Below, piece after piece: positions 8 to 16,532 of a stretch of 47,552 nucleotides of DNA. The notes under the pieces were generated by a model, which ran no database searches, had not been told where the DNA came from, and worked only from the letters and a program-made list of their open reading frames with translations. The stretch is from positions 1 through 47,552 of IMG/VR virus record IMGVR_UViG_3300032241_002511. The stretch is one strand, 5' to 3'. How positions within the stretch are numbered: position 1 is the stretch's first letter; each line of letters begins with the position of its first letter. Position numbers and translations under genes: made by a program. The DNA is from a virus.

Positions 8-91
8 GCGCGGGTGGTGGAATGGTCTACACACGAAACTTAAAATTTCGCGGCGAAAGCCTTGCGGGTTCGAATCCCGCTCCGCGCACCA
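8..91 (+). tRNA. tRNA-Leu (TAA)
   Basis: The acceptor strands GCGCGGG (8-14) and TCCGCGC (81-87) pair over 7 bp. The D-arm has the class II Leu form, the anticodon loop is CTTAAAA, there is a GGC-GAAA-GCC variable arm, the T-loop is TTCGAAT, and CCA is encoded. It reads UUA codons, which are common in this AT-rich phage. Confidence 0.93.
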
Positions 92-121
92 ACATTGGGT
101 TCGAGTCCCACCACTCGCACC
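92..121 (+). pseudogene. Orphan tRNA 3' half (T-arm, acceptor strand and CCA)
   Basis: Immediately after tRNA-Leu there is a T-arm (TGGG, loop TTCGAGT, CCCA) followed by an acceptor 3' strand CACTCGC and ACCA. No matching 5' half lies next to it. It looks like the remnant of a deleted or recombined tRNA in the array. A role as a tRNA-half RNA cannot be excluded. Confidence 0.7.
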
Positions 122-129
122 AGTTTAAT

Positions 130-203
130 GCGGGGTTCGTATAGTGGTAATACCCTAGCCTTCCAAGCTAGAGCTGAGGGTTCGATTCCCTTACCCCGCT
201 CCA
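130..203 (+). tRNA. tRNA-Gly (TCC)
   Basis: The acceptor GCGGGGT pairs with its 3' strand. The anticodon stem CTAGC/GCTAG encloses the loop CTTCCAA (anticodon TCC), and the 3' end is an encoded CCA. It reads GGA codons. Confidence 0.93.
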
Positions 204-226
204 TTTAAAACCCGCTCCATTTAAAA
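195..226 (+). repeat. 16-bp tandem duplication at the tRNA-Gly 3' end
   Basis: CCCGCTCCATTTAAAA occurs at 195-210 and again at 211-226 with no gap. The second copy duplicates the tRNA 3' end and leads directly into the next start codon at 228. It looks like a slippage or recombination scar at a tRNA end. Confidence 0.85.
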
Positions 227-227
227 T

Positions 228-419
228 ATGTTTGAAAAAATAATAGTACCAGAAAAAATTAAACAACAGCGGCTGAATATTTGTAAAGCCTGCGAGCACT
301 ACAAATCTGGAATTTGTAAGAAGTGCGGTTGTATTTTAAATCTGAAAACAGAAATTACATTCCAAGAATGCCCGATTAAAAAATGGGAAAAGTATAATTC
401 TGGCCACGTAGCTCAGTAG
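228..419 (+). CDS. Small zinc-ribbon protein
   Basis: This 63-residue protein has paired cysteine motifs (CKAC near residue 19, CKKCGC near residue 30) and ends in a CP..KW motif. The layout matches a family of small zinc-ribbon proteins common in T4-like and Bacillus phages whose function is not known to me. It starts just after tRNA-Gly without a clear Shine-Dalgarno. Its last six codons and TAG stop lie inside the 5' part of tRNA-Arg (402-419), so gene and tRNA share sequence. Zinc binding is inferred from the Cys spacing only. Confidence 0.7.
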   Translation: MFEKIIVPEKIKQQRLNICKACEHYKSGICKKCGCILNLKTEITFQECPIKKWEKYNSGHVAQ

Positions 420-479
420 GATTAGAGCATGAGCCTTCTAAGCTCAGGGTCGCAGGTTCGATTCCTGCCGTGGTCGCCA
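402..479 (+). tRNA. tRNA-Arg (TCT)
   Basis: Acceptor GGCCACG (402-408) pairs with CGTGGTC (469-475). The anticodon stem TGAGC/GCTCA encloses CTTCTAA (anticodon TCT), the T-arm GCAGG/CCTGC is present, and CCA is encoded. It reads AGA. It overlaps the end of the upstream zinc-ribbon gene by 18 nt. Confidence 0.93.
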
Positions 480-483
480 ATTT

Positions 484-491
484 AATAAATA
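484..491 (+). promoter_or_regulatory. Candidate T4-type late promoter (AATAAATA)
   Basis: AATAAATA resembles the T4 late consensus TATAAATA and lies 31 nt before the ATG at 522. Similar NTAAATA boxes precede other genes in the window. The assignment is by pattern only. Confidence 0.4.
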
Positions 492-521
492 CCTTTGTTC
501 TTTTTAATGGAGGTATTTTCA

Positions 522-1253
522 ATGGCAGACATTAAAGTTTCTATCGTAAATCAAAGCACAGTTTTATCAGATCTAGATGTGAAGTCTGTAATGAGCGCAT
601 TACAGACACAAGTCACTCGAGACTTTGCGCCAATCTGGGGAATTGATGCTGATATAATTTTTGTACCAAAAGGACAAACACCTGATCCAAAAACTTGGTG
701 GCTTGTTCTTTTGGACGATAGTGATACAGAAGGTGCACTCGGATATCATGATTTAAATCCTGCTGGTCTTCCGACGGCAAAGGTATTCGCTAAAACAGAT
801 TTAGATAATCATATGAAATGGTCTGTAACAGTAAGTCATGAATTGCTTGAGATGCTTGCTGATCCAGATATTAATTTGACAGCGTTTATTCAAACTGGAG
901 ATACATCAGGATATTTGTTTGCATTTGAAATGTGCGATGCAGTTGAAGATGATCAATTTGGTTATGATATTAATGGTGTAACAGTTTCTGATTTTATTCT
1001 CCCCTCATATTTTCAACAATCAATTCCAGCGACCAAATGGGATTTTTGTGGACATCTAAAGGCTGGCGTACCAAATATGCTTCCTGGAGGATATCTAAGT
1101 AAGTTTGCTGTTGGACAAAGACATGAACAGCCAGGATGGACTCAGATCACTGCACAAAAGTTGGTTGAGGGTTCTGAAGTTGTAAGTAGAGCAACACGTT
1201 CTCTTCCATCTTCTAGAAGAAAGAAGAGAGCTAATAAGACAGTTAGTTTGTAA
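522..1253 (+). CDS. Zincin-like metalloprotease-family protein
   Basis: The start chosen is the ATG at 522, preceded by GGAGGT; a TTG at 495 would also be open. The 243-residue product contains SVTVSHELLEMLADP, an HExxE zincin signature followed by an Asp, as in phage and bacterial proteins annotated as putative metallopeptidases. The C-terminus is short, basic and Ser/Arg/Lys-rich (SSRRKKRANK). No signal peptide is visible, so it is probably cytoplasmic or virion-associated. It sits alone between tRNA genes. Family membership rests on the HELLE motif; substrate and role are unknown. Confidence 0.7.
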   Translation: MADIKVSIVNQSTVLSDLDVKSVMSALQTQVTRDFAPIWGIDADIIFVPKGQTPDPKTWWLVLLDDSDTEGALGYHDLNPAGLPTAKVFAKTDLDNHMKWSVTVSHELLEMLADPDINLTAFIQTGDTSGYLFAFEMCDAVEDDQFGYDINGVTVSDFILPSYFQQSIPATKWDFCGHLKAGVPNMLPGGYLSKFAVGQRHEQPGWTQITAQKLVEGSEVVSRATRSLPSSRRKKRANKTVSL

Positions 1254-1281
1254 GTCGTTGATTTGATTTATATTTTAAAGT

Positions 1282-1310
1282 TTTACTTTCTACCGACATG
1301 AGCATATAAT
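1282..1310 (+). promoter_or_regulatory. Sigma70-type promoter for tRNA-Lys array
   Basis: TTTACT (1282-1287), a 17-nt spacer and a perfect TATAAT (1305-1310). tRNA-Lys starts at 1321, so the predicted leader is only a few nucleotides. The spacing from -10 box to tRNA is identical to that at the tRNA-Gln promoter. Confidence 0.75.
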
Positions 1311-1320
1311 ATTTATTATT

Positions 1321-1396
1321 GGGTTCATAGCTCAGTCGGTAGAGCAGTAGACTTTTAATCTATTGGTCGAGGGTTCGACCCCCTCTGAACCCACCA
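1321..1396 (+). tRNA. tRNA-Lys (TTT)
   Basis: Acceptor GGGTTCA/TGAACCC, anticodon loop CTTTTAA (anticodon TTT), T-loop TTCGACC, and encoded CCA. It is the first gene after the promoter at 1282-1310. Confidence 0.95.
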
Positions 1397-1399
1397 ATT

Positions 1400-1475
1400 G
1401 CCCATATAGCACAGCTGGTAGTGCAACTGATTTGTAATCAGTAGGTCGGGAGTTCGAATCTCTCTGTGGGCACCA
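1400..1475 (+). tRNA. tRNA-Thr (TGT)
   Basis: Acceptor GCCCATA/TGTGGGC, anticodon stem ACTGA/TCAGT with loop TTTGTAA (anticodon TGT), and encoded CCA. It reads ACA and is 3 nt after tRNA-Lys. Confidence 0.95.
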
Positions 1476-1583
1476 ATCGCGGACCTGTATTAATATTCCG
1501 CTTCAGTCAGAGCGAAAACAGGATGAGCTGCTGCTGCGGGGTTTGCTGATTTCCTGACACAACAATAATCAGCTGCAGTTTTT
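1476..1583 (+). other. Structured spacer between tRNA-Thr and tRNA-Glu
   Basis: This 108-nt spacer has no ORF. It contains GCGGA/TCCGC and CCTGT/ACAGG pairings that compete with each other. There is also a GCTGATT/AATCAGC hairpin near the 3' end, followed after TGCAG by five Ts. It could be a processing spacer, a degraded tRNA or a small RNA. Nothing identifies a function. Confidence 0.4.
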
Positions 1584-1659
1584 GCTCCCATCGTCTAACT
1601 GGTTAGGACGCCGCCCTTTCAAGGCGAGAATAGGGATTCGAGTTCCCTTGGGAGCGCCA
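1584..1659 (+). tRNA. tRNA-Glu (TTC)
   Basis: Acceptor GCTCCCA/TGGGAGC, anticodon loop CTTTCAA (anticodon TTC), T-loop TTCGAGT, and encoded CCA. The outermost anticodon-stem pair is a C-A mismatch. Confidence 0.92.
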
Positions 1660-1667
1660 ATTTGAAG

Positions 1668-1741
1668 GCGGGTATGATGTAGTGGTAGCCTGTGTCCTTG
1701 CCAAGGATAGCGTGTGAGTTCGATTCTCACTACCCGCTCCA
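1668..1741 (+). tRNA. tRNA-Gly (GCC)
   Basis: Acceptor GCGGGTA/TACCCGC, anticodon loop TTGCCAA (anticodon GCC), T-arm GTGAG/CTCAC, and encoded CCA. It is the second glycine isoacceptor in the block and reads GGC and GGT. Confidence 0.93.
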
Positions 1742-1743
1742 AT

Positions 1744-1819
1744 GGTGATTGTAGATCAATGGTAGATCCCTGGATTGTGATTCCAGTCGTTGTGGGTTCG
1801 AGTCCCATCAGTCACCCCA
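1744..1819 (+). tRNA. tRNA-His (GTG)
   Basis: Anticodon loop TTGTGAT (anticodon GTG). An encoded extra 5' G (1744) faces C73 (1816), the tRNA-His identity pair. The acceptor pairs 1745-1751 with 1809-1815, and CCA is encoded at 1817-1819. Confidence 0.93.
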
Positions 1820-1827
1820 ATTGATTT

Positions 1828-1902
1828 GCGTGGTTAGCTCAGCGGTAGAGCAACGCCTTTACACGGCGTGGGTCGGGGGTTCGAATCCCTCACTACGCAC
1901 CA
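1828..1902 (+). tRNA. tRNA-Val (TAC)
   Basis: Acceptor GCGTGGT/ACTACGC, anticodon stem ACGCC/GGCGT with loop TTTACAC (anticodon TAC), T-loop TTCGAAT, and encoded CCA. It is the last tRNA of the second cluster. Confidence 0.95.
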
Positions 1903-1929
1903 TCTTAATATTTTGTTAATGACTTTTCA

Positions 1930-1937
1930 ACTAAATA
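1930..1937 (+). promoter_or_regulatory. Candidate late promoter (ACTAAATA)
   Basis: ACTAAATA lies 36 nt before the glycosyltransferase ATG at 1974. The same ACTAAATA box recurs at 3587-3594 ahead of the nucleotidyltransferase. The late-promoter reading is an inference. Confidence 0.45.
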
Positions 1938-1973
1938 ATTATATCTGAACTCTCTCCCGAAAAAGGTAACAAA

Positions 1974-3056
1974 ATGTCTAAGCTGCTTTTTATATTGAAG
2001 CGCAGAGAAATGACTACTGACGAAAATTCAGTTCTCAACAAAGAAACAAAACCAAACTTCAAATATTGTATTTCTTCTGGACTTAGAAATTCAGCAATGT
2101 TCGTCGTTAACATGTTGAATGAAAATGGAATAGAAGCAAAGTTGGTAGAAGTTGTCGACAATAATTGTATCGATCGCGAAGTGAGTTTATATAAACCCAC
2201 GCACGTCATTATCGAAGCATATTGGGTTGTACCTGAAAAATTTGATGTATTGACTAAATTGCATCCAAAAGTGAAATGGATTGTTCGCAATCACAGCGAA
2301 CTTCCATTTTTAGCTAACGAGGGTATTGCTATTGATTGGACACTAAGATATCTAAAACACAAAGATGTCTATTTGGCACCAAACAGCTTCAAATCATATC
2401 ACGATATGAAGAAAATGGTCGCAGCATCACACAGTAGCTTGGTTTCAGAATATAAGATCATTTATCTTCCAAATTATTACCCAACTGATGGAAATATAAA
2501 ACCAAGACCTCCAATCGGAGAAACAATCAATGTTGGATGTTTTGGAGCAGTGCGTCCTCTGAAGAATCATTTAGTCCAAGCAGTTGCTGCGATTCATTTC
2601 GCAAGAGTAAACAGAAAGAAATTGAGATTCCACATTAATGTCGCCAGAATAGAAGATGCTGGTAATAATGTTCTCAAGAGTTTAAGAGGATTATTTAAAA
2701 ATCTTGATCCAAACAAGTATGAACTTGTGGAGCATGGTTGGCTCGATCATAAAGATTTTCTTGAGTTAGTTAATACGATGGACATCGGTCTGCAGGCAAG
2801 TTTCACTGAAAGTTTTAATATTGTTGCTGCTGATTTCGTTTCGATGGGCGTACCGATGGTTGTTTCTGAAGAAATTGAATGGATGCCTAAACAGTTTGTT
2901 GCTAAACACACAGACTCACAATCCATTTATATTAAAATGGAAAAGGTTCTTCGTTGCTTTAATTTTTGGAAGAGGGGAAGAGACGCTCTCATTAATCTAT
3001 TAAAGTATAACAAGAAATCTAAAAAGATTTGGGTTGAGCATTTCAAATATTATTAA
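1974..3056 (+). CDS. GT-B fold glycosyltransferase
   Basis: This 360-residue protein has a GT-B layout. Its N-terminal half resembles an acceptor domain (HVIIEAYWV, then WIVRNHSE). The second half has the nucleotide-sugar domain: NVGCFGAVRPLKN, then EHGWLDHKDFLELVNTMDIGLQASFTESFNIVAADFVS split across residues of about 245-290. The last part carries the E-x7-E-like donor-binding motif of retaining family GT4-type enzymes (ESFNIVAAD). An AAAAAGG Shine-Dalgarno precedes the ATG. It lies alone between tRNA blocks, away from the glycan cassette at 9258. The acceptor is unknown; candidates are host surface glycan or phage DNA/virion. Confidence 0.8.
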   Translation: MSKLLFILKRREMTTDENSVLNKETKPNFKYCISSGLRNSAMFVVNMLNENGIEAKLVEVVDNNCIDREVSLYKPTHVIIEAYWVVPEKFDVLTKLHPKVKWIVRNHSELPFLANEGIAIDWTLRYLKHKDVYLAPNSFKSYHDMKKMVAASHSSLVSEYKIIYLPNYYPTDGNIKPRPPIGETINVGCFGAVRPLKNHLVQAVAAIHFARVNRKKLRFHINVARIEDAGNNVLKSLRGLFKNLDPNKYELVEHGWLDHKDFLELVNTMDIGLQASFTESFNIVAADFVSMGVPMVVSEEIEWMPKQFVAKHTDSQSIYIKMEKVLRCFNFWKRGRDALINLLKYNKKSKKIWVEHFKYY

Positions 3057-3085
3057 TTTACTTTTAGACGACAGTAAACTATAAT
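3057..3085 (+). promoter_or_regulatory. Sigma70-type promoter for tRNA-Gln/Ser/Leu
   Basis: TTTACT (3057-3062), a 17-nt spacer and a perfect TATAAT (3080-3085). tRNA-Gln starts at 3096, giving the same -10-to-tRNA distance as at tRNA-Lys. Confidence 0.78.
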
Positions 3086-3095
3086 AATGTTCTAT

Positions 3096-3169
3096 TGAGG
3101 GATCGTCTAACGGCAGGACGACGGACTTTGAATCCGTCTATCGTGGTTCGAATCCACGTCCCTCAGCCA
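3096..3169 (+). tRNA. tRNA-Gln (TTG)
   Basis: Acceptor TGAGGGA/TCCCTCA with the U1-A72 pair typical of tRNA-Gln, anticodon loop CTTTGAA (anticodon TTG), and encoded CCA. It is the first gene after the promoter at 3057-3085. Confidence 0.94.
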
Positions 3170-3190
3170 ATTGCCTCGTAGATAAATAAT

Positions 3191-3255
3191 CCGAGAATGC
3201 AGTCTATAGCAGCTATGAGAATGCTCCCGCCGAAGCATTGAATATAGATAATCGG
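3191..3255 (+). other. Nested stem-loop RNA element between tRNA-Gln and tRNA-Ser
   Basis: Three helices nest without conflict: CCGA (3191-3194) with TCGG (3252-3255), TCTATA (3203-3208) with TATAGA (3243-3248), and AATGCT (3220-3225) with AGCATT (3234-3239) around an 8-nt loop. The element lies on the tRNA transcript and is non-coding. It may be a small RNA or a processing element. I do not recognise a family. Confidence 0.5.
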
Positions 3256-3266
3256 CACAGATTTAA

Positions 3267-3354
3267 GGAAGCGTGGTCGAGTGGATTATGGCTCTAGTCT
3301 TGAAAACTAGCGACTGTCACAGGTCCGTAGGTTCGAATCCTACCGCTTCCGCCA
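3267..3354 (+). tRNA. tRNA-Ser (TGA)
   Basis: Acceptor GGAAGCG/CGCTTCC, anticodon stem CTAGT/ACTAG with loop CTTGAAA (anticodon TGA), a long class II variable arm, discriminator G, and encoded CCA. Confidence 0.95.
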
Positions 3355-3358
3355 AATT

Positions 3359-3442
3359 GCCCTGATGTTGAAATTGGTAGACAATGTGGTCTTAGAAGCC
3401 ACTGCCGTAGGCGTGGGGGTTCGAGTCCCTCTCAGGGCACCA
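3359..3442 (+). tRNA. tRNA-Leu (TAG)
   Basis: Acceptor GCCCTGA/TCAGGGC, anticodon stem GTGGT/GCCAC with loop CTTAGAA (anticodon TAG), a class II variable arm, and encoded CCA. It is the second Leu isoacceptor and lies 4 nt after tRNA-Ser. Confidence 0.95.
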
Positions 3443-4337: not shown

Positions 4338-4934
4338 GTGTCTTTGGTATTAGTAACTGATAGTGCAGGCACTCCGAGAGAGTGGGCTGATATGGAAACT
4401 GCATGTACATATTATGCTAAAAAGAAAGTTCTTTGGGAAATTGGATCTAATGTTAAAGAATTCTTTGGTGGTAAAAACAACCAAGGCGTAACTTCAAAAA
4501 TTTCCATTTCATCAATCATTGGCGTCAGTGGTCCAATTTTTGGTAAAGAATTTTACGATCGAGAAACTGTTTATACAGATCGCTATATTCTATACGCAAG
4601 AGATCATCATCTCTGTGCCTATTGTGGTGATGTATTCACACCTAATAATTTGACAATTGATCACGTTACTCCAAAGTCTCGTGGTGGTAAAAATATTTGG
4701 ATGAATACAGTTACAGCTTGTAAGCCTTGTAACATGAGGAAGTCTAATAAGACTCCAGAAGAAGCTAAGATGCATCTTCTTTATGTTCCTTATATTCCAA
4801 CAAGACAAGAGAAGATTCTTCTAAAGAATCGTAAAATCCTTGCAGATCAAATGGAGTTCTTATTGGCTAGGATTCCTAAGAATTCCAGAGTCTGGAAGTA
4901 TAAGGGGTTCGGAGGAGTCTCTATAAGCCATTGA
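4338..4934 (+). CDS. HNH endonuclease
   Basis: Translation starts at GTG 4338 after GAGAGGTG. The 198-residue product has a structural zinc site, C93-x2-C96 and C128-x2-C131, framing the HNH core. The core has H109 (IDHVTPKSRGG), N123 and N132, the layout of McrA-like HNH nucleases. The roughly 80-residue N-terminal region is not recognised. Such genes in T4-like phages can be free-standing homing endonucleases or recombination nucleases. No intron or interrupted gene is visible nearby, so a homing role is unproven. Confidence 0.85.
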   Translation: MSLVLVTDSAGTPREWADMETACTYYAKKKVLWEIGSNVKEFFGGKNNQGVTSKISISSIIGVSGPIFGKEFYDRETVYTDRYILYARDHHLCAYCGDVFTPNNLTIDHVTPKSRGGKNIWMNTVTACKPCNMRKSNKTPEEAKMHLLYVPYIPTRQEKILLKNRKILADQMEFLLARIPKNSRVWKYKGFGGVSISH

Positions 4935-7312: not shown

Positions 7313-8056
7313 GTGTCAAAAAGAAGAAATAATAATAATAATGAAGAAGAAATTCTAATTGACAAGAAACAAACTGCTAAATTTAAAAGTTCTGATTTGA
7401 GGCAGTTTGATCCGTTAACTGAGAACCAAAGATTATTTTTTGAGGCTTATGACCGAGGTGACTATTTTATAATGTTGACTGGTTCGGCTGGAACTGGAAA
7501 ATCTTTCATCGCTTTATATAAAGCAATGGCTGAAGTTCTTGATAGAACCAACTCCTTTCAAAGAATAGTAATAGTACGTTCTGCCGTTCAATCTAGAGAC
7601 TTAGGATTTACTCCAGGATCTGTTGAAGAAAAGATGTCTCTTTATGAACAGCCTTATATGCAGATCGCAACTCAGTTCTTTGGACGTAGGAACGCTTATG
7701 AGGAGTTGAAAGACCAGCATAAAGTTGAGTTTATTTCAACCAGTTTTATTCGTGGTATGAGTTTTGACGATGCAATTATTATAGTCGATGAGTGTCAAAA
7801 CTTGAATTGGGAAGAATTATCGACTATAATGACTCGCGTTGGATATCGTTCTAAAATTGTATTTTGTGGTGATTACAGACAGTCAGATCTTCATAGGAAA
7901 CAGAATGATCGTTCAGGTCTTTCTAAATTTCATAAAGTAGCGAAGACAATGCAATCGTTTACGAACATTGAATTCACTACTGAAGATATTGTAAGAAGTA
8001 GTTTGGTTAAAGACTTCTTAATTGCTGTCGATAAATTTGAAAAGGAAAATGATTGA
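7313..8056 (+). CDS. phoH: PhoH-like P-loop ATPase
   Basis: The 247-residue protein starts at GTG after AAAAGGTG. Walker A is GSAGTGKS (residues 57-64) and Walker B is AIIIVDECQN (about residue 155). The VRSAVQSRDLGFTPGSVEEKM segment between them is the PhoH signature region. The family is an ATPase linked to RNA metabolism in bacteria and is widespread in marine and T4-like phages, with unsettled phage function. The start has an Asn/Glu-rich low-complexity segment (RRNNNNNEEE). It overlaps the exonuclease gene by 4 nt. Confidence 0.93.
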   Translation: MSKRRNNNNNEEEILIDKKQTAKFKSSDLRQFDPLTENQRLFFEAYDRGDYFIMLTGSAGTGKSFIALYKAMAEVLDRTNSFQRIVIVRSAVQSRDLGFTPGSVEEKMSLYEQPYMQIATQFFGRRNAYEELKDQHKVEFISTSFIRGMSFDDAIIIVDECQNLNWEELSTIMTRVGYRSKIVFCGDYRQSDLHRKQNDRSGLSKFHKVAKTMQSFTNIEFTTEDIVRSSLVKDFLIAVDKFEKEND

Positions 8057-8724
8057 AAACTTTTAAACATGATTTTGTGACGCTTCCTAAAATGAGTCGA
8101 GTTGAATTTGAAGGTAGGCGTTATTATGTAACTCCTTCTGGAAAAAACTACCAGTCTGTAACTACTCTTACAGGTAAAGTGAACGCCAAGGCTATTCAGG
8201 AATGGCGTAACAAAGTTGGAGAAGAACAAGCAAATAAAATTTCAACACGAGCAGCTAATCGTGGGACTAGCATGCATAAAACTGTTGAAAATTATCTTCT
8301 CAATAAAATTGAAACGGATCCGCTCGGTAGAATGTTGCTCGAAGATATAAATCCTCTCAATACGGCAATGTTTACAAAGATCAAGCCTCTGGTTGATCGA
8401 CTGGACAACATTAAGCTTGTTGAGGGCACAATGTACAGCGACTCCCTAGAACTCGCTGGGACTGCTGACTGCGTTGCTGAATATAGCGGCGAGTTGGCTG
8501 TAATCGACTTCAAGACATCTACTCGCCCTAAGAAGAAAGATCATATTGGTAACTATTTCATGCAAGGTGCTGCTTATGGTAGGATGTATGAAGAACTTTA
8601 TGGTCAAGCGCCAACTAAGATTGTAATTATGATGTCAGTTGAGGCTCTTGATCATGGTGTCTCTTATATCGAGCCTTATGATAAATGTTTAAAGATGTTA
8701 ACTGATTTTATGAAAACTATTTGA
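8053..8724 (+). CDS. PD-(D/E)XK exonuclease (RecB/Cas4-like)
   Basis: The start is TTG 8053 after AAAGGA, overlapping the phoH stop; ATG 8092 is the alternative. Of 223 residues, the visible core is H75 (RGTSMHKTVE), D139 (GTADC), IDFK with D152 and K154, then Q171-x3-Y175. This is the RecB/Cas4-type arrangement with a helix QxxxY motif, predicting a metal-dependent nuclease on single-stranded DNA ends. Homologues are annotated as exonucleases in T4-like cyanophages. Its stop overlaps the -35 box of the next promoter. Confidence 0.88.
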   Translation: MKTFKHDFVTLPKMSRVEFEGRRYYVTPSGKNYQSVTTLTGKVNAKAIQEWRNKVGEEQANKISTRAANRGTSMHKTVENYLLNKIETDPLGRMLLEDINPLNTAMFTKIKPLVDRLDNIKLVEGTMYSDSLELAGTADCVAEYSGELAVIDFKTSTRPKKKDHIGNYFMQGAAYGRMYEELYGQAPTKIVIMMSVEALDHGVSYIEPYDKCLKMLTDFMKTI

Positions 8725-8749
8725 CTTTACAATTGAGAACTTATATAAT
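8721..8749 (+). promoter_or_regulatory. Sigma70-type promoter for zinc-ribbon gene and tmRNA
   Basis: TTGACT (8721-8726), a 17-nt spacer and TATAAT (8744-8749): the strongest match to the sigma70 consensus in the window. It overlaps the stop of the exonuclease gene and precedes the zinc-ribbon gene at 8762 and the tmRNA. Confidence 0.82.
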
Positions 8750-8761
8750 AGAGTGTCGGCT

Positions 8762-8905
8762 ATGAATATTAGTAAAGAAACTTTATATCACTTTAGTTGT
8801 ACTGAATGTAAACTCTGGTGGTCAGTTGCCAATACTGATGATTGGAAGCCAGAGAAGATGTATTGTCCTCATTGTGGTGTATTGCATTTAATAAATATTG
8901 ATTAA
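8762..8905 (+). CDS. Small zinc-ribbon protein (47 aa)
   Basis: The ORF starts at an ATG 13 nt after the -10 box, so the leader is very short or absent and no Shine-Dalgarno is visible. The product has C13-x2-C16 and C35-x2-C38 (MYCPHCGV), a compact zinc ribbon similar in layout to Com-like or rubredoxin-type knuckles. It ends 3 nt before the tmRNA acceptor piece and probably shares its transcript. Confidence 0.65.
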   Translation: MNISKETLYHFSCTECKLWWSVANTDDWKPEKMYCPHCGVLHLINID

Positions 8906-8907
8906 TG

Positions 8908-8967
8908 GTAGTAAACTCTTAAGTAAAGGCATCTTGGACGGGGGTTCAATTCCCCCCATCTCCACCA
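8908..8967 (+). ncRNA. ssrA: tmRNA acceptor piece (circularly permuted, two-piece)
   Basis: This segment holds the tRNA-like 3' domain: T-stem GGGGG/CCCCC with loop TTCAATT (8940-8956), acceptor strand CATCTCC (8957-8963), discriminator A and encoded CCA (8965-8967). No 5' half lies upstream. The strand pairs with GGGGATG at 9032-9038, the start of the coding piece. Positions 8908-8919 pair with 9174-9185 (11 of 12 positions), matching the long-range helix that joins the two pieces. The 5' boundary is approximate. Confidence 0.88.
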
Positions 8968-9031
8968 AATTAAGGGAACTGGAAACTTGTAATCTCCAGT
9001 TTTAAAAGAAGAGAATTCTCTCGCCCACTAT

Positions 9032-9190
9032 GGGGATGATCGGGTTCGACAGGGTGAGTAATAGGCAAAGGGCTACCAGTGAGGCGACTGACTTAATCAG
9101 CGCAAACAAAGTAAACGCAAACGATGATGTTTACGACATGGCTCTAGCTGCTTAATCGCAGTATTAGAATACCAGAGTTGACTGCTTGGT
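9032..9190 (+). ncRNA. ssrA: tmRNA coding piece with tag ANDDVYDMALAA
   Basis: It starts GGGGATGATCGGGTTCGACA, the conserved tmRNA 5' domain. The resume codon GCA is at 9117 and the reading frame 9117-9155 encodes ANDDVYDMALAA and TAA. The tag has the usual AND start and ALAA degron end. The acceptor half lies upstream, so the gene is permuted as in alphaproteobacteria, where processing yields two RNAs. Segment 8968-9031 between the halves would be removed; it holds an AACTGGA/TCCAGTT hairpin. The 3' end is approximate. Function: ribosome rescue and proteolytic tagging, possibly with phage-specific tag. Confidence 0.9.
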
Positions 9191-9204
9191 AACAGAAAAG
9201 TCAG

Positions 9205-9239
9205 GGGTTGGTGGCTTTTACACCACCAACCCTTTTTTT
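9205..9239 (+). terminator. Intrinsic terminator after tmRNA
   Basis: A perfect 10-bp stem (9205-9214 with 9223-9232) with an 8-nt loop is followed by seven Ts. It ends the zinc-ribbon/tmRNA transcript and separates it from the glycan cassette. Confidence 0.93.
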
Positions 9240-9257
9240 ATTAAAAGGAAATACGGA

Positions 9258-9848
9258 ATGATTACATTTGTTGCTGCAGCATACAAAGAAAAATATGATC
9301 CATATTTGTTTATTTCAGCCATGTTGCTGCAAACAGATCCCAGATGGAAATGTTTAATATATTGCGATCAGCCTAATACTTACGTCAACAAGGCTGTTAG
9401 ACATTTCAAAGACGATAGAATCACTGTTGTCTCAAATAAAAAACCAAAAGGATTCTGGGGACATTACAACAGAAAACATGCTCTAGAAGAACTGGTTGAT
9501 ACCGAGTTCATAATACAAGCATCCATACAAGACTATTATATTCCCATAACAGTCCAAGAAATCTTAGAAAACTTCAACAATAAAGATTTAGTATTTTTTA
9601 ATTGCATTCACAATCATAAAACAGTATACTCAGATCACAAAAGTTATAGCAGAGTTCAGGATACGATTTTATTAGCTCGTAGAATCGACTGGAGTTCTTA
9701 TGCGGTAAGAACTAATATCGCTAAAAAGATAGGAATAAATAATCCCGAATCAGATATTTGTGATGGAATTTTTGCAGAAGAATGCGCTAGAAAAATCCCA
9801 CCAGAGAGAATTATGAAGATACATAAACCGTTGGTAGTCCATAATTAA
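9258..9848 (+). CDS. GT-A type glycosyltransferase (family 2-like)
   Basis: The start is the ATG at 9258 after AAAAGGA; an upstream in-frame GTG at 9186 lies inside the tmRNA and is rejected. The 196-residue protein opens MITFVAAAYKEKYDPYLFISAMLLQTDPRW, split here as an N-terminal strand and helix. This is the family 2 opening where a nucleotide-sugar-binding strand is followed by several-targets wording like S-x-LLQT. Later come ALEELVDTEFIIQASIQDYY and a C-terminal IHKPLVVHN. The classical DxD is not obvious, so the fold call is moderate. It is the first gene of the cassette. Confidence 0.6.
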   Translation: MITFVAAAYKEKYDPYLFISAMLLQTDPRWKCLIYCDQPNTYVNKAVRHFKDDRITVVSNKKPKGFWGHYNRKHALEELVDTEFIIQASIQDYYIPITVQEILENFNNKDLVFFNCIHNHKTVYSDHKSYSRVQDTILLARRIDWSSYAVRTNIAKKIGINNPESDICDGIFAEECARKIPPERIMKIHKPLVVHN

Positions 9849-10810
9849 TGAAGATAGCTATCGTCGGAGGAGGATGGGTCGGTTGTCATTTAGCGTATAA
9901 ATTGAAAGATTTGCACGATATTGTTTTATTTGAAAAAAACGAAAAGCTTTTTACTGAGACTTCTTACAATAATCAAAACAGATTGCATTTAGGCTATCAT
10001 TATGCTAGGAATTTTAAAACTAGAAAGCTCTGTTTAGATACCTATGAGAAATTCTTATTCGATTATGGTCATTTGACAGAAAAAGTTTCTAATAACTATT
10101 ACTGCATTCCCCATGAATCAATATTAGACTTTGCCACATTTCAGCAAATATTCCATAAATTCGGAAATAAAGAAGTAGAATCTCCTTTTGAAAATATTGA
10201 AGGCTGCGTATACACAGAAGAAAGATACATCAATTTCCATAAAGCTCATGAGTTCTTTAATGATGTGTTGAGAGACATTTTTGTCAATAGGAATATTAAT
10301 TCCATAGATGATATAGCAAACCAATATGATCTTGTTATTAATGCGACTAATAATTTTTTAGATCACAATGAGAATAGCTTTTTTGAATTGACGCTCACAC
10401 TTTTATACAATAAAAACAATCAAATAAAGTTTGATGCCATGACATTAGTCGACGGTGAATTCTTTTCTCTCTACCCATACAAAGAAAATAAATATACTTT
10501 GACTGACGTAGAACATACTCCGATAGCTAGATTTAATTCAGTTAAAGAATTGAACGCTTATTCGATCAGCACTGATCTAATCCAAAGTAAGAAAAAATTG
10601 ATTGAGGAAAAGGTAATCTCATATTATCCTAATTTCCTATTCGACTTTATCTATGATGGATATTTTTTGGCAACCAAATCGAAAGTTCATAGTCAATCTG
10701 CGGACAGATATCCAGTTATAACAAAAGCTGGAAATGTTGTAAGCTGTTTCACAGGAAAAATTCAAGGCATTTATGTGATCGAAGAATATATACAAGATTT
10801 ATTAAAATGA
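9848..10810 (+). CDS. FAD-dependent oxidoreductase (DAO-like)
   Basis: The 320-residue protein begins with a dinucleotide-binding Rossmann motif, MKIAIVGGGWVGCHLA, and an acidic strand end (VLFEKNEK). A second block, NQNRLHLGYHYARNFKTRK, is typical of DAO-type flavoproteins found in bacterial polysaccharide clusters and marine viruses. The C-terminus (VVSCFTGKIQGIYVIEEYI) resembles the FAD-closing segment. It should oxidise or rearrange a sugar or amino group with FAD; substrate unknown. Its ATG overlaps the preceding stop by 1 nt and it overlaps the next gene by 4 nt. Confidence 0.75.
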   Translation: MKIAIVGGGWVGCHLAYKLKDLHDIVLFEKNEKLFTETSYNNQNRLHLGYHYARNFKTRKLCLDTYEKFLFDYGHLTEKVSNNYYCIPHESILDFATFQQIFHKFGNKEVESPFENIEGCVYTEERYINFHKAHEFFNDVLRDIFVNRNINSIDDIANQYDLVINATNNFLDHNENSFFELTLTLLYNKNNQIKFDAMTLVDGEFFSLYPYKENKYTLTDVEHTPIARFNSVKELNAYSISTDLIQSKKKLIEEKVISYYPNFLFDFIYDGYFLATKSKVHSQSADRYPVITKAGNVVSCFTGKIQGIYVIEEYIQDLLK

Positions 10811-11832
10811 CAAAAGAAGAATTAATTTATCTTTTCGAGAAATATTTGAAACGTCAACCAAACTCTCATGAGTTTCAAACTCATGAGAGAAAAAACTATG
10901 ATCAATTTGAGATTGAGATTTCTGAATGCCCAGAAAGAAAATTATTAAATCCAGCAAAAATTGCTATACTATTGTCTGGTCATATTAGAAACTTAAACAT
11001 ATTGAATTCAATCATTGACATATCAAAAAGACATAGTGTTGATTTGTTTGTTTTCTCTTGGGATAATGTTGGACTGAAAGGAAAGGAAACTAATTTAAAC
11101 GATGAGGTGGATTATAAATTAATTGAGTCTAGACTATCTAAATTACCAAATGTAAAAGCATACAAAATCGAGAATAACAAAAAGTTTATATTAAAAAATC
11201 AAAATTCTAAAGTAACATACCTCAATTATTCCTCGCCAGAAGTCTTTATAAAATCCCAGTTGTACTCTATACACAACAGTTTTAAATTATTAGAAGAATA
11301 TGTAAAGAATAATGACGTTGAATATGAAATGGTAGTGAAGTGTAGAATGGATAGTGATTTTATAAGATTCAATCCTGATAGTTCTTTGTTTAAAGACATA
11401 AACGAAAACAATATTATATTTGTTCCAAATTCAGATTGCGACCATATTCATCCAGATTATGGAACATCATGTTGGGCTTGTGATAACATGTACTACAAAC
11501 ATAATCTAAAAAGAGTTCATATATTTGAACATACCAATATTGTTTGTGATCTTTTTGCTTATGGAAGCTTCAAATCAATGAAGAAGTACTGCTCTCTTTA
11601 TAATGAATACGATAAACTCAATGAGACCTTCACTGAAGAAAATTTAAGATCTATAGAAAATGGTGATATTGTTTATACTAAAGAAAATAATGTTTATCGC
11701 CTACCAGATTCTTGTCACACTAAAAGCACATATTATCTTAATTGCTCATACCCAGAAAGACTATTGCAAAAATATTTAAGAGATTATATGTTGGTTCGAT
11801 CAGAAAAAATAAAAATGAGATTTTATAGGTAA
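10807..11832 (+). CDS. SGHIRN-type glycan-associated protein, putative transferase
   Basis: The 341-residue protein has an N-terminal 45-residue module (LIYLFEKYLKRQPNSHEFQTH), similar to short DUF4214-like segments attached to phage glycosyltransferases. Next comes AKIAILLSGHIRN with DLFVFSWD, and later VVKCRMDSDF, where RxDxDF could be a GT-A metal-binding motif. C-terminal Cys/His-rich stretches (SDCDHIHPDY, CWACDN) may bind metal. I recognise the family as recurring in sugar clusters but do not know an activity. A 27-nt near-perfect palindrome lies in codons 19-28. Confidence 0.5.
   Translation: MTKEELIYLFEKYLKRQPNSHEFQTHERKNYDQFEIEISECPERKLLNPAKIAILLSGHIRNLNILNSIIDISKRHSVDLFVFSWDNVGLKGKETNLNDEVDYKLIESRLSKLPNVKAYKIENNKKFILKNQNSKVTYLNYSSPEVFIKSQLYSIHNSFKLLEEYVKNNDVEYEMVVKCRMDSDFIRFNPDSSLFKDINENNIIFVPNSDCDHIHPDYGTSCWACDNMYYKHNLKRVHIFEHTNIVCDLFAYGSFKSMKKYCSLYNEYDKLNETFTEENLRSIENGDIVYTKENNVYRLPDSCHTKSTYYLNCSYPERLLQKYLRDYMLVRSEKIKMRFYR
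10863..10889 (+). repeat. 13-bp perfect inverted repeat with 1-nt centre, inside the CDS
   Basis: CTCTCATGAGTTT (10863-10875) and its exact reverse complement (10877-10889) flank a single C. It lies about 55 nt after the start codon of the 10807 gene and is followed by six As. It could be an mRNA hairpin or an operator. No T-tract follows on the coding strand. Confidence 0.85.
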
Positions 11833-11835
11833 TTT

Positions 11836-12594
11836 ATGAAATTGTTATTTGGTAGTACTGGATTGATCGGAAAAACATTATTAGAATCTGAAATGTTCTG
11901 CGGATTCAATACTAAAAATAGTAATGACTTCAATTCAATCGCAGAAAATGGAGATGAGTTATATCTTTGCTGTTTACCAGCGGCTAAATGGCAAGTCAAT
12001 CAAGCCTTGGATCGCGATATTCGAAATATTGAACATATAACAGATATTATTAGTAAAAAGCGATATTCCAAAGTTGTATTAATTTCAACAATTGATGTTT
12101 ATTGTGAATCCCCATTAAAATATAATGAGGATTATGTACCTCAAATAAAATCATTAAATTATGGATCAAACAGATATCTTTTTGAACTGTTTGTTAGAAG
12201 TTTTGTAAAGTTTGATGATCTAAAAATATTTCGTTTACCAGCACTGTACAATAAGCATATCAAAAAGAATATACTATTTGATCTATTAAATAATAACAAT
12301 GTGGATAAAATTAACATCAATTCATCATATCAATGGTACAATTTAAATAATCTCTGGAATGATATTAAAAAATATTCCGCAGAATATCCAAAAGAAACAA
12401 TCTTCAATTTATTCCCAGAGCCAATAGAAACTAAAGATATTGTTGCGATGTTTCCTGAATATAATTTGACTCTCTTTGGAAACAGAGTACAATATGATTA
12501 TACAACTAAATTAACCGATAGTGGGTATATTCAAACAAAAGGAGAATCCCTGAGAGAAATCCAGGAATTTATAAATGGATCTCGCGCTAAGTAA
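11836..12594 (+). CDS. Extended SDR-type NAD-dependent epimerase/dehydratase
   Basis: The 252-residue protein opens MKLLFGSTGLIGKTLLE, a Gly-rich Rossmann motif of the extended SDR type (GxxGxxG). VVLISTIDVYCE follows, the usual strand carrying the catalytic Ser/Thr, and then YGSNRYLFE. The last is where the family has YxxxK; here the Lys position is Arg. It is shorter than the usual 300-330 residues. It likely modifies a nucleotide-sugar (epimerisation, reduction or dehydration). It lies 3 nt after the previous gene and overlaps the next by 20 nt. Confidence 0.72.
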   Translation: MKLLFGSTGLIGKTLLESEMFCGFNTKNSNDFNSIAENGDELYLCCLPAAKWQVNQALDRDIRNIEHITDIISKKRYSKVVLISTIDVYCESPLKYNEDYVPQIKSLNYGSNRYLFELFVRSFVKFDDLKIFRLPALYNKHIKKNILFDLLNNNNVDKININSSYQWYNLNNLWNDIKKYSAEYPKETIFNLFPEPIETKDIVAMFPEYNLTLFGNRVQYDYTTKLTDSGYIQTKGESLREIQEFINGSRAK

Positions 12595-13339
12595 CCTTGC
12601 GTGGAAAGATGAAGATTCTATTAAAGTTTTTAAGTTACTAAAACAAAAACAAATTAATAAAATCGAATGCGTTTTCACAAGAATCAAAGATTGGTCAGAA
12701 TTGACTGATGAGGATATCATTGGATATAAAAATATTCTTGAGAATAATAACATAACACCGTATTCAGCTCAATCTATATTTTACGGAATTAATTGCGAAC
12801 TATCTGAAATTGATTTAATCGTAAACCACTTTAAAAAACTAATACAATACTCAAAAATTTTAGGATTAAAAGTATTAGTTTTCGGATCACCCTCTCTAAG
12901 AAAAAAATGCTCACTCTGGCAAGAATCATTAGTTGAGATATTCAAAACAGTTGATGGTCTATTAGAAGAAACAGGAATAACTGTTGTGATTGAACCGAAC
13001 GCCAAAATCTATGGTGGAGAATTTTGGCATAGAGTTTCTGAGATCGTAGAATTCATTGAAGAAAATCAATTACAAAATATTCGAACGATGATTGATACAC
13101 ATAATATAATTTTAGAACATTCTGATCCTAGAATAGAATTAATAAACAATAAAAATTACATAGAGCACGTTCATATATCTGAAGAAAAAATGAAGAATAT
13201 AGAACTGAACGAAACTCATTTAAAATTCGCGGAACAACTCAGAACCATAGGATATGATAAAACAATTACATACGAAGTGTTAAACAATGATGGAGTATTA
13301 GAGAGTCTTAACTTATTTTGTAATATTTACAAAGATTAA
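12575..13339 (+). CDS. Xylose-isomerase-like TIM-barrel protein
   Basis: The 254-residue protein has the pattern of AP-endonuclease-2/sugar phosphate isomerase barrels. An N-terminal strand DLALSNLAW comes first, IECVFTRIKDW follows, and KVLVFGSPSLRKKC, VVIEPNAKIYGGEF (metal-binding Glu), IRTMIDTHNI (Asp, His) and YIEHVHISEE (His) lie at later strand ends. These are the expected metal ligands. The family isomerises or epimerises sugars such as inosose or xylulose types. It is the last gene of the cassette and is followed by a terminator. Confidence 0.72.
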   Translation: MDLALSNLAWKDEDSIKVFKLLKQKQINKIECVFTRIKDWSELTDEDIIGYKNILENNNITPYSAQSIFYGINCELSEIDLIVNHFKKLIQYSKILGLKVLVFGSPSLRKKCSLWQESLVEIFKTVDGLLEETGITVVIEPNAKIYGGEFWHRVSEIVEFIEENQLQNIRTMIDTHNIILEHSDPRIELINNKNYIEHVHISEEKMKNIELNETHLKFAEQLRTIGYDKTITYEVLNNDGVLESLNLFCNIYKD

Positions 13340-14074: not shown

Positions 14075-14295
14075 TGGCAACAAAGGAAGAGAAGAATAAT
14101 TTCTCAATTCAAATTGAGAGTTTAGTGATTGAGAAGGAAATAACATATATTGAGGCGATCACACAATACTGCGAGGAAACTGGTCTAGAGGTTGAGCTTG
14201 CTGCGACTTTGGTCAATGATGTTTTAAAATCAAAAATAAAATCGGAAGCTCAACAGCTTAGATATTTACCAAGGAGTTCTAAATTACCGTTATGA
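14074..14295 (+). CDS. 33: Late-transcription coactivator (T4 gp33-like)
   Basis: The 73-residue protein fits the gp33 family of T4-like phages: FSIQIESLVIEKEITYIEAI, YCEETGLEVELAATLV and a C-terminal SEAQQLRYLP. gp33 joins the gp45 clamp to RNA polymerase and gp55 to activate late promoters. It lies directly upstream of gp59 as in T4 (33-59-32), which supports the call. Its ATG overlaps the endolysin stop by 1 nt. The presence of gp33 fits the TAAATA-type boxes in the window. Confidence 0.8.
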   Translation: MATKEEKNNFSIQIESLVIEKEITYIEAITQYCEETGLEVELAATLVNDVLKSKIKSEAQQLRYLPRSSKLPL

Positions 14296-14897
14296 ACGGA
14301 TATGATGCATTTCAAACTTATCAAGCCGTGAGGCTTCATTTTATGAACGATAAGTTTGATTATTTTGCTTATAACGGTAAATCTAAAACTTCTCCTGAAG
14401 CCTTCAATTTAAGAAAAGACAAGTATACTTTTCATAAAATTGCAAGGATGTTCGATGAAGCAGAGCTTCCTTACTTCTTTGCTATTAATTTTTTAAAGAG
14501 AGACAGTAAAGCATGGATTGCTGGGATGCTTCAAGAAGAAGCATTTGAAGTTTTTAAAAATTGGAAAAAATGGCAAGAGGATAGAGTCGGCAATTTGAAA
14601 AACAATTTGGTCGGTTTATCAAATGCGGGTAAATTTGAAAATCTCATTATTTCTAAAGATGGTCAGTTTCCTGAGCTCTTAAATATGGTACTTAGAAATG
14701 ATCTGAATTATGATGTTCTAGTTATTTTAGATCACTATATCCATTTTATGGATTCTTGGGATAAAAAGATAGAAGATGATTTTATTTGGAAAGAATTTCA
14801 CAAAAAGTTTAAAAAATATAAGCCATTTTTTCTATCGTATGCGCCATTAAGTGATATGTTCTATAAAAAGATGATAAGCGAAGGATTGAGAAGATAA
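14292..14897 (+). CDS. 59: DNA helicase loader (T4 gp59-like)
   Basis: The 201-residue protein has gp59 features: QAVRLHFMNDKFDYFAYNGKSK, then SPEAFNLRKDKYTFHKIARMF in the N-terminal HMG-like half. These match T4 gp59 blocks HMNGKYD.IKYN and RRDKYFFQKL. Length (T4: 217) agrees. gp59 loads the gp41 helicase onto gp32-coated forked DNA and coordinates recombination-dependent replication. It overlaps gp33 by 4 nt and the following gene by 1 nt. gp32, its partner, lies one gene downstream. Confidence 0.87.
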   Translation: MNGYDAFQTYQAVRLHFMNDKFDYFAYNGKSKTSPEAFNLRKDKYTFHKIARMFDEAELPYFFAINFLKRDSKAWIAGMLQEEAFEVFKNWKKWQEDRVGNLKNNLVGLSNAGKFENLIISKDGQFPELLNMVLRNDLNYDVLVILDHYIHFMDSWDKKIEDDFIWKEFHKKFKKYKPFFLSYAPLSDMFYKKMISEGLRR

Positions 14898-15662: not shown

Positions 15663-16532
15663 ATGAATATTAGCGCACTAAAAAAGAAGTCCTCTATGGA
15701 CAAGTTGACAAAGGCTATCGAAGGTCTTTCTGGTGGAGCCTCAAAGAATGGAGCTGATAACCGCTTTTGGACAGCAGAAGTTGACAAGGCAGGAAATGGT
15801 TTCGCCGTCATTCGCTTTCTCGATTCGCCTCAGGTAGATGGCGAAGATGGAATGCCATGGGTTCAGATTTTCAATCATGGATTCCAAGGTCCAGGCGGTT
15901 GGCTCATTGATAACTGCTTGACTTCTATCAATCAGAAGTGTCCAGTCTGCGAATATAATACATCACTTTGGAACAGCGGTATCGAAGCGAACAAGGATAT
16001 CGTTCGCAAGCAAAAGCGAAAGTTGAATTATATCGCAAACATTCTAGTTGTTAAGGATGCAGCTCATCCTGAGAACGAAGGTAAGGTTTTCCTCTTCAAG
16101 TTTGGTAAGAAGATCTTCGATAAGATTAAGGAAAAGATCGAACCTCAGTTCGAAGATGAGAAGGCAGTTAATCCTTTCAATTTCTGGGAAGGAGCAAATT
16201 TCAAGCTCAAGATTCGTAATGTCGAAGGCTATCGTAATTATGATAAGTCTGAGTTTGATGCAGTAAGTGCGGTTGCTGATGGCGACGATGAAGAGATCGA
16301 GAAGATCTGGAAGAGCGAACATTCCCTCAAGGAATTCCTCAAGCCATCAGAGTTCAAGTCCTATGAGGAGTTGAAGGCTAAGTTGGATCGCACTCTCGGT
16401 GCTGCTGATTTCAAGGCACGTACTAAGAGCGTTGCTGAGGCAGGCGATGAGTTGGATGAGGTTGTTATGGATCCGACAGGAGCCTCTGATGATGATACGC
16501 TTTCTTATTTCAATAAGTTAGCCGCTGAGTAA
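15663..16532 (+). CDS. 32: Single-stranded DNA-binding protein (T4 gp32-like)
   Basis: The 289-residue protein matches gp32. An N-terminal basic segment (LKKKSSMDKLTKAI) for cooperative binding is followed by the OB-fold core with a zinc site H72, C85, C93, C96 that mirrors T4 H64/C77/C87/C90. NHGFQGPGGWLIDN is the most conserved block. The C-terminus is acidic (DELDEVV...DDDTLSYF), the usual site for partner proteins. Lys codons are mostly AAG, unlike most neighbours. Codons 62-75 are repeated as DNA in the tape-measure gene. Confidence 0.93.
   Translation: MNISALKKKSSMDKLTKAIEGLSGGASKNGADNRFWTAEVDKAGNGFAVIRFLDSPQVDGEDGMPWVQIFNHGFQGPGGWLIDNCLTSINQKCPVCEYNTSLWNSGIEANKDIVRKQKRKLNYIANILVVKDAAHPENEGKVFLFKFGKKIFDKIKEKIEPQFEDEKAVNPFNFWEGANFKLKIRNVEGYRNYDKSEFDAVSAVADGDDEEIEKIWKSEHSLKEFLKPSEFKSYEELKAKLDRTLGAADFKARTKSVAEAGDELDEVVMDPTGASDDDTLSYFNKLAAE
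15847..15887 (+). repeat. Copy 1 of 41-bp near-identical duplication (in gp32 gene)
   Basis: Positions 15847-15878 are identical to 16847-16878 (32 bp), extending to 39/41 identical bases through 15887. Here it encodes gp32 residues about 62-75, including zinc ligand H72. Confidence 0.95.

Follow-up and report, generated by a model that had tools for sequence, protein, structure and literature searches.

Here, we describe a circularly permuted two-piece tmRNA gene from a 47,552-base virus contig of IMG/VR (a 47.5-kb fragment, analysed as a whole and called the window below), which on its sequence features is best read as a functional phage tmRNA. Very probably it represents a working phage ssrA gene of the permuted beta type that is inherited within a group of T4-like phages and frees ribosomes by trans-translation with the help of host partners. 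The initial annotation of this contig had described the locus as a permuted two-piece tmRNA that is encoded by a T4-like phage and has a tag of its own, and this description is supported by covariance scores, by ARAGORN and by the T4-like gene context. Phage tmRNAs have usually been treated as curiosities or as recent captures from hosts. The comparison presented here points to a branch of beta-type two-piece genes that is restricted to viruses, occupies a single gene slot and encodes degrons whose peptide sequence is conserved. This defined gene set can be used to ask whether phages depend on rescuing ribosomes themselves and whether they decide what happens to proteins from broken messages.

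Identification, type and folding of the RNA

The covariance search that had been named beforehand as a test of the locus was passed clearly: the model tmRNA_permuted (RF04321) matched over its full length at window positions 8907–9155 on the plus strand with 146.3 bits (cut-off 47, E 5.3e-29). The beta_tmRNA model (RF01850) matched at 8854–9232 with 118.8 bits against a cut-off of 84, and ARAGORN independently called a permuted tmRNA (tmRNA*) at 8875–9246 with the tag ANDDVYDMALAA. All three agree with the permuted order, the T-arm, the CATCTCC-ACCA end, the GGGGATG 5' half and the TTCGAC motif recognised at the outset, and the tag frame was also located correctly (Table 1). Besides a score above the cut-off and the permuted order of its halves, the gene shows G3-U70 with an NCCA end, a tag frame with stop codon and degron, and the P2 helices and pseudoknots. 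As its tag frame is intact and conserved, it is not a TLD-only form of the DS6A kind; nor is it a prophage or integration-site fragment of ssrA, being complete and located inside a T4-like replication-gene region.

Alphaproteobacterial, cyanobacterial and betaproteobacterial ssrA genes had all been listed initially for this gene order, a list that can now be narrowed for this RNA. It scores above the cut-off of the beta model and higher there than with the alpha_tmRNA model (RF01849, 80.2 bits, cut-off 50) or the cyano tmRNA model (37.6 bits, below its cut-off of 70) and is therefore closest to the betaproteobacterial type. Although the alpha cut-off is passed, the T-loop TTCAATT and the ANDD tag differ from the GGCGGTACC-like T-loop and the ANDN tags that are typical of most alpha-type bacterial copies examined.

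Table 1. Features of the permuted tmRNA locus and of the conserved gene slot around it (window coordinates)
Feature	Position	Strand	Remarks
PhoH-like	7313–8056	+	upstream part of conserved slot; phrog_170, E 7.7e-85
PD-(D/E)XK exonuclease	8053–8724	+	upstream part of conserved slot; phrog_298, E 1.6e-65
Sigma-70-like promoter	8721–8749	+	TTGACT-17-TATAAT; 11/12 consensus bases; ~160 nt upstream of tmRNA
Zinc-ribbon ORF, 47 aa	8762–8905	+	between promoter and tmRNA; Pfam Zn_ribbon_8, E 1.8e-4, below cut-off
Permuted tmRNA gene, one predicted precursor	8907–9204	+	RF04321, RF01850, ARAGORN; 3' boundary approximate, runs into terminator stem
P2b 3' strand	8907–8911	+	pairs with 9073–9077; 98.2% of cells paired; A-U to U-A in 13/33
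P2a 3' strand	8930–8936	+	pairs with 9050–9056; 100% of cells paired; two-sided changes at 3 pairs
T-arm	8940–8956	+	stem 8940–8944/8952–8956, loop TTCAATT; 99.4% paired; two-sided changes at 4/5 pairs
Acceptor 3' strand CATCTCC and encoded ACCA	8957–8967	+	ACCA at 8964–8967 ends acceptor piece; 100% paired with 9032–9038
Intervening sequence, 64 nt	8968–9031	+	between ACCA and GGGGATG; weak fold, z -1.2; removal by RNase P and 3' trimming predicted
Coding piece 5' end	9032–9056	+	GGGGATG acceptor strand (9032–9038), TTCGAC (9045–9050), P2a 5' strand (9050–9056)
P2b 5' strand	9073–9077	+	covariation
PK1-like region	9077–9100	+	stem 9088–9091/9097–9100; two-sided changes at three pairs
Tag frame ANDDVYDMALAA and TAA	9117–9155	+	ARAGORN coding part; RF04321 alignment reaches stop codon
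3' pseudoknot	9170–9203	+	9170–9174/9187–9191 and 9179–9183/9199–9203
Intrinsic terminator	9203–9238	+	12-pair stem (9203–9234) and T run
gp59 helicase loader	14292–14897	+	downstream part of conserved slot; T4_Gp59_N, E 5.1e-10; phrog_269
gp32 ssDNA-binding protein	15663–16532	+	downstream part of conserved slot; phrog_224, E 2.4e-109

The fold was tested on an alignment of 33 viral relatives. In the acceptor stem, T-stem, P2a and P2b 99.5% of the cells are paired, with two-sided changes in 10 of the 24 pairs (71 cells); none of 500 shuffles was as good, and the signal was lost when the partners were slid. The acceptor helix proposed at the outset (8957–8963 with 9032–9038) is right, with every cell paired, and carries the G3-U70 alanine signal as G9034-U8961, where U70 is invariant and every one of the 33 relatives has G-U as its third acceptor pair. 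The second long-range helix of the initial annotation, 8908–8919 with 9174–9185, had to be rejected: its pairing (67.4% of cells) is no better than the shuffled mean of 67.8%, a two-sided change occurs in one cell only, and it overlaps and competes with P2b. The true long-range helices are P2a and P2b, both with strong compensatory change. For the PK1-like stem and the 3' pseudoknot, the changes were tallied directly in the alignment, with no comparison to shuffles; the second pseudoknot stem shows swaps of the GACU/AGUC, GACC/GGUC and ACUC/GAGU type among relatives, and the first is paired in most but not all of them. G3-U70 and ACCA were found in 138 of 138 parsed viral copies, for most of which the search pattern itself required CTCCACCA.

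The intervening sequence ranges from 4 to 82 nt in viral relatives, with 4–7 nt in 12 copies (among them L126, L128, L135, L147, L150, L151, L166 and L173) and 43–82 nt in the rest. Since short and long states require a minimum of seven changes within the clade, this insert seems to have been gained and lost repeatedly. The very short insert was considered as a new trait and dropped, as the alpha-type bacterial copy L190 has, by eye, about 5 nt.

The near-consensus promoter and the strong terminator noticed at the outset are both present. A promoter scan yields four sites against 2.3 expected, so that only this near-perfect one is notable; terminator-like sites number four against 0.3 expected in shuffles. 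A few relatives have homologues of the zinc-ribbon ORF at a distance of 0.3–1.6 kb from their tmRNA, without conserved adjacency. As a tmRNA partner this ORF was discarded, because among the loci examined it directly adjoins the tmRNA in the window only.

Viral distribution, phylogeny and the tag peptide

Permuted tmRNAs are widespread in viral contigs, with at least 120 stretches found in an IMG/VR DNA pattern scan for the permuted junction; the pattern (CTCCACCA followed by GGGGNTG) favours beta-type copies. When the tmRNA was compared by blastn with 50,697 phage records, a single short T-arm-like match resulted, which means that the closest kin are found in metagenomic viral contigs. A first tree was reconstructed from 189 distinct viral and bacterial permuted tmRNAs with the tag removed. 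It places the window copy inside a viral-only clade of 43 rows (SH-aLRT 100), and the viral and bacterial labels need 4 changes on it compared with 57 in shuffles. A second tree of 82 rows, from which also the intervening sequence was removed, keeps a viral clade of 41 rows with moderate support (86/87) and leaves the close phage relative L050 outside, so the exact borders of the clade are unsure; about 240–285 columns carry the signal of these trees. Bacterial beta_tmRNA copies loosely adjoin the viral clades in both. The window copy thus probably belongs to a large, virus-only branch of beta-type two-piece tmRNAs. Two bacterial genomes (G421 and G756) contain a beta-type permuted tmRNA with the tag ANDDNFEVALAA (L209 and L279). 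As a strong beta_tmRNA match was obtained in only 4 of 61 genomes of the order of G421, this type may reflect horizontal transfer.

The common tag class in the clade of the window copy is ANDDx[YF]xMALAA. In 84,980 bacterial and archaeal genomes (a collection without contigs under 3 kb) degenerate DNA for A-N-D-D-x-[Y/F and a few others]-x-M-A-L-A-A-TAA, with the TAA stop required, was found in two stretches only, both of them one-piece gammaproteobacterial tmRNAs with ANDDNYDMALAA. The early remark that the tag was not recognised from a host is therefore nearly right: the exact tag occurs in none of these genomes, and only this close variant does. A slightly wider pattern yielded 60 stretches in viral contigs. 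As these were selected by their tag, conservation was tested on a set chosen by the junction with the tag ignored: at least 84 of the 90 distinct viral copies end in [LIM]AA, the leucine being written with six codons and the alanines with four. A tag end that is kept while its codons vary means that the peptide and not the DNA is conserved, as expected of a translated degron, and indicates that the tag is selected as a peptide.

The middle residues and the length of the tag vary among phages (10–16 aa as a rule). ALAA and ANDDxY are ordinary recognition elements, established for SsrA, SspB and ClpX of E. coli; the window tag of 12 aa has two extra residues between its SspB-like (ANDDxY) and its ClpX-like (ALAA) part if compared to the 10-aa betaproteobacterial tags. 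L050 (positions 2976–3305) is nearly identical to window positions 8903–9232 upstream of the tag and has a different tag, ANDSNYDLALAA, together with a different 3' pseudoknot. This different tag and 3' part on a near-identical upstream part resembles cassette exchange by recombination.

The phage gene slot and known relatives

Head closure, DNA end protector, tail tube and baseplate genes of T4-like kind are also present in the contig, and its core proteins are nearest to T4-like phages of the cyanophage–pelagiphage sort (52–62% identity). Dozens of viral contigs with a permuted tmRNA share the order PhoH, exonuclease, tmRNA, cell-wall hydrolase, gp59 and gp32, and the freshwater cyanophage DSL-LC03 has the series PhoH, exonuclease, gp33, gp59, gp32 but lacks a tmRNA there. 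Such a fixed slot among lytic replication genes argues for inheritance in the phage line and not for recent capture.

The same slot, between the PD-(D/E)XK nuclease and gp59–gp32, is occupied in the T4-like Pelagibacter phage Mosig EXVC030M (MT647606, Kyanoviridae) by a likewise permuted, annotated tmRNA (RF04321, 93.6 bits). In contrast with the window copy, it is of the alpha type (RF01849, 67.6 bits), its tag is GEDNFALAA instead of ANDDVYDMALAA, and gp33 follows directly, where the window has an island of accessory genes. This island (9258–13339), which separates the tmRNA from the conserved genes further downstream, encodes an FAD-dependent oxidoreductase, a xylose-isomerase-like TIM-barrel protein and unknown proteins; in the phages of L134 and L149, four of its genes have homologues at the corresponding position.

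A two-piece tmRNA was published in 2022 for the T4-like marine Methylophilales phage Melnitz (PMC9004378). It shares with the window a permuted ssrA on a T4-like phage and differs in its alphaproteobacterial kinship and its glutamine riboswitch; no riboswitch family was matched in the window by Rfam covariance search. The same study counts two-piece forms as 53 of 133 unique phage tmRNA structures and proposes as their role the upkeep of the translation machinery or the degradation of host proteins (PMC9004378). The tmRNA database counts 79 unique tmRNAs from phages, all forms included (PMC11915505), and earlier cases were described from mycobacteriophages and Bacillus phage G (PMC4131195). 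The TLD-only tmRNA of mycobacteriophage DS6A (PMC4131195, PMC11915505) is also phage-borne but lacks a tag frame, whereas the window copy is complete.

Among chromosomal genes, the two-piece tmRNAs of some Betaproteobacteria (RF01850) agree with the window copy in their canonical T-loop, layout and best clan score, but their tags have 10 aa (e.g., ANDERFALAA or ANDENFALAA) and not 12. In the order that holds a beta_tmRNA copy of 251 bits, the beta type occurs in 7 of 200 genomes. The two gammaproteobacterial MAG copies with the tag ANDDNYDMALAA (L122 and L123) match the window tag in 11 of 12 residues but are of the standard one-piece form (RF00023, 187–192 bits); either convergence or an old shared tag may explain the likeness. 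Both copies (L122:653–1043 and L123:1260–1650) lie near an integrase-like reading frame.

With the Melnitz gene published (PMC9004378) and the Mosig gene annotated, two-piece tmRNAs on T4-like marine phages cannot be called unseen before, and this claim was rejected. The present analysis adds to them the beta type, a clade that is probably confined to viruses, the tag class, the conservation of the degron as a peptide and the shared slot, parts of which may be reported elsewhere, as the literature was covered in part.

Probable function, alternative explanations and further window features

Alanine charging by G3-U70, SmpB-dependent entry, tag addition and destruction by ClpXP are established for tmRNA, and by analogy we infer the path from transcription to the benefit for the phage. 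A single precursor would start at the promoter and end in the terminator near 9234. Cleavage by host RNase P before 9032 and 3' trimming to the ACCA at 8967 would remove the intervening sequence, and the acceptor and coding pieces would stay joined through the acceptor, P2a and P2b helices. The RNA could then be charged by host alanyl-tRNA synthetase, and host SmpB and EF-Tu would deliver it to ribosomes that have stalled on broken mRNAs; such mRNAs should be frequent in an infection during which transcripts are destroyed. There the ribosome would move to the tag frame, add A-ANDDVYDMALAA and terminate, and the product would be destroyed by host ClpXP or ClpAP via its ALAA end. Overall, infection would proceed with a larger pool of free ribosomes and amino acids that does not depend on ssrA supplied by the host. 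Neither SmpB nor SspB was found in 27 related viral records, nor SspB in the window, while both were detected in positive-control genomes; as several of these records are fragments, absence from whole genomes is not proved. As a tmRNA is already present in most bacteria, it is not evident why a phage should need a copy, which counts against a working gene. Long-term conservation shows use but not which use; most likely, as far as can be read from the sequences, the phage employs the RNA for ribosome rescue.

A more ambitious reading is that T4-like phages keep a stable trans-translation RNA of their own whose phage-type degron, with its two extra residues, changes the adaptor or protease and so steers protein turnover beyond a mere top-up of rescue; we regard this as unlikely. 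Somewhat less probable still appears a retagging in which the phage RNA outcompetes the host tmRNA and redirects the proteolysis of stalled proteins by a tag with other adaptor or protease preferences. A tag class that hardly occurs in cellular genomes but is maintained throughout the phage clade would fit, as would the exchangeable tags suggested by L050. On the other hand, the tag retains the ordinary ALAA degron and the equally ordinary ANDDxY element, tags vary widely among phages, nearly the same tag is used by two bacterial one-piece tmRNAs, and no phage SspB was found in the 27 viral records and the window.

It is very improbable that the RNA acts as a decoy which binds SmpB or alanyl-tRNA synthetase and blocks host trans-translation, as proposed for the DS6A TLD-only tmRNA. 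Inhibition of tmRNA by a TLD-only form is reported (PMC4131195, PMC11915505, citing Mao et al.), but a decoy needs no tag frame, degron or pseudoknots, whereas here a full frame with stop codon and degron is present and conserved as a peptide, and the PK1-like and 3' pseudoknot stems are kept. Also disfavoured, and hardly credible, is a functionless passenger that was recently captured from a host or left by integration: ssrA is a frequent integration site with fragments in prophages (PMC9004378), but the gene is whole and has a fixed place in the T4-like replication-gene region, its helices covary in 33 relatives, and its clade is free of bacterial sequences. For chance similarity or a pseudogene, a practically negligible explanation, no evidence was found; it is refuted by the covariance scores (E 5e-29 and E 1e-35 for two models), by the covariation in the 33 relatives and by the intact frame and helices. 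Ribosome rescue by a phage-inherited beta-type tmRNA is the reading that we prefer to all of these.

Upstream of the tmRNA region the window contains twelve tRNA genes on one strand (8–3442), followed by an HNH endonuclease gene (4338–4934). At its other end (43315–47552) it encodes an open-ended, probably tail-fibre-like protein of more than 1,400 aa with a degenerate 30-base repeat that corresponds to a 10-residue, TLNVTNETVT-like unit.
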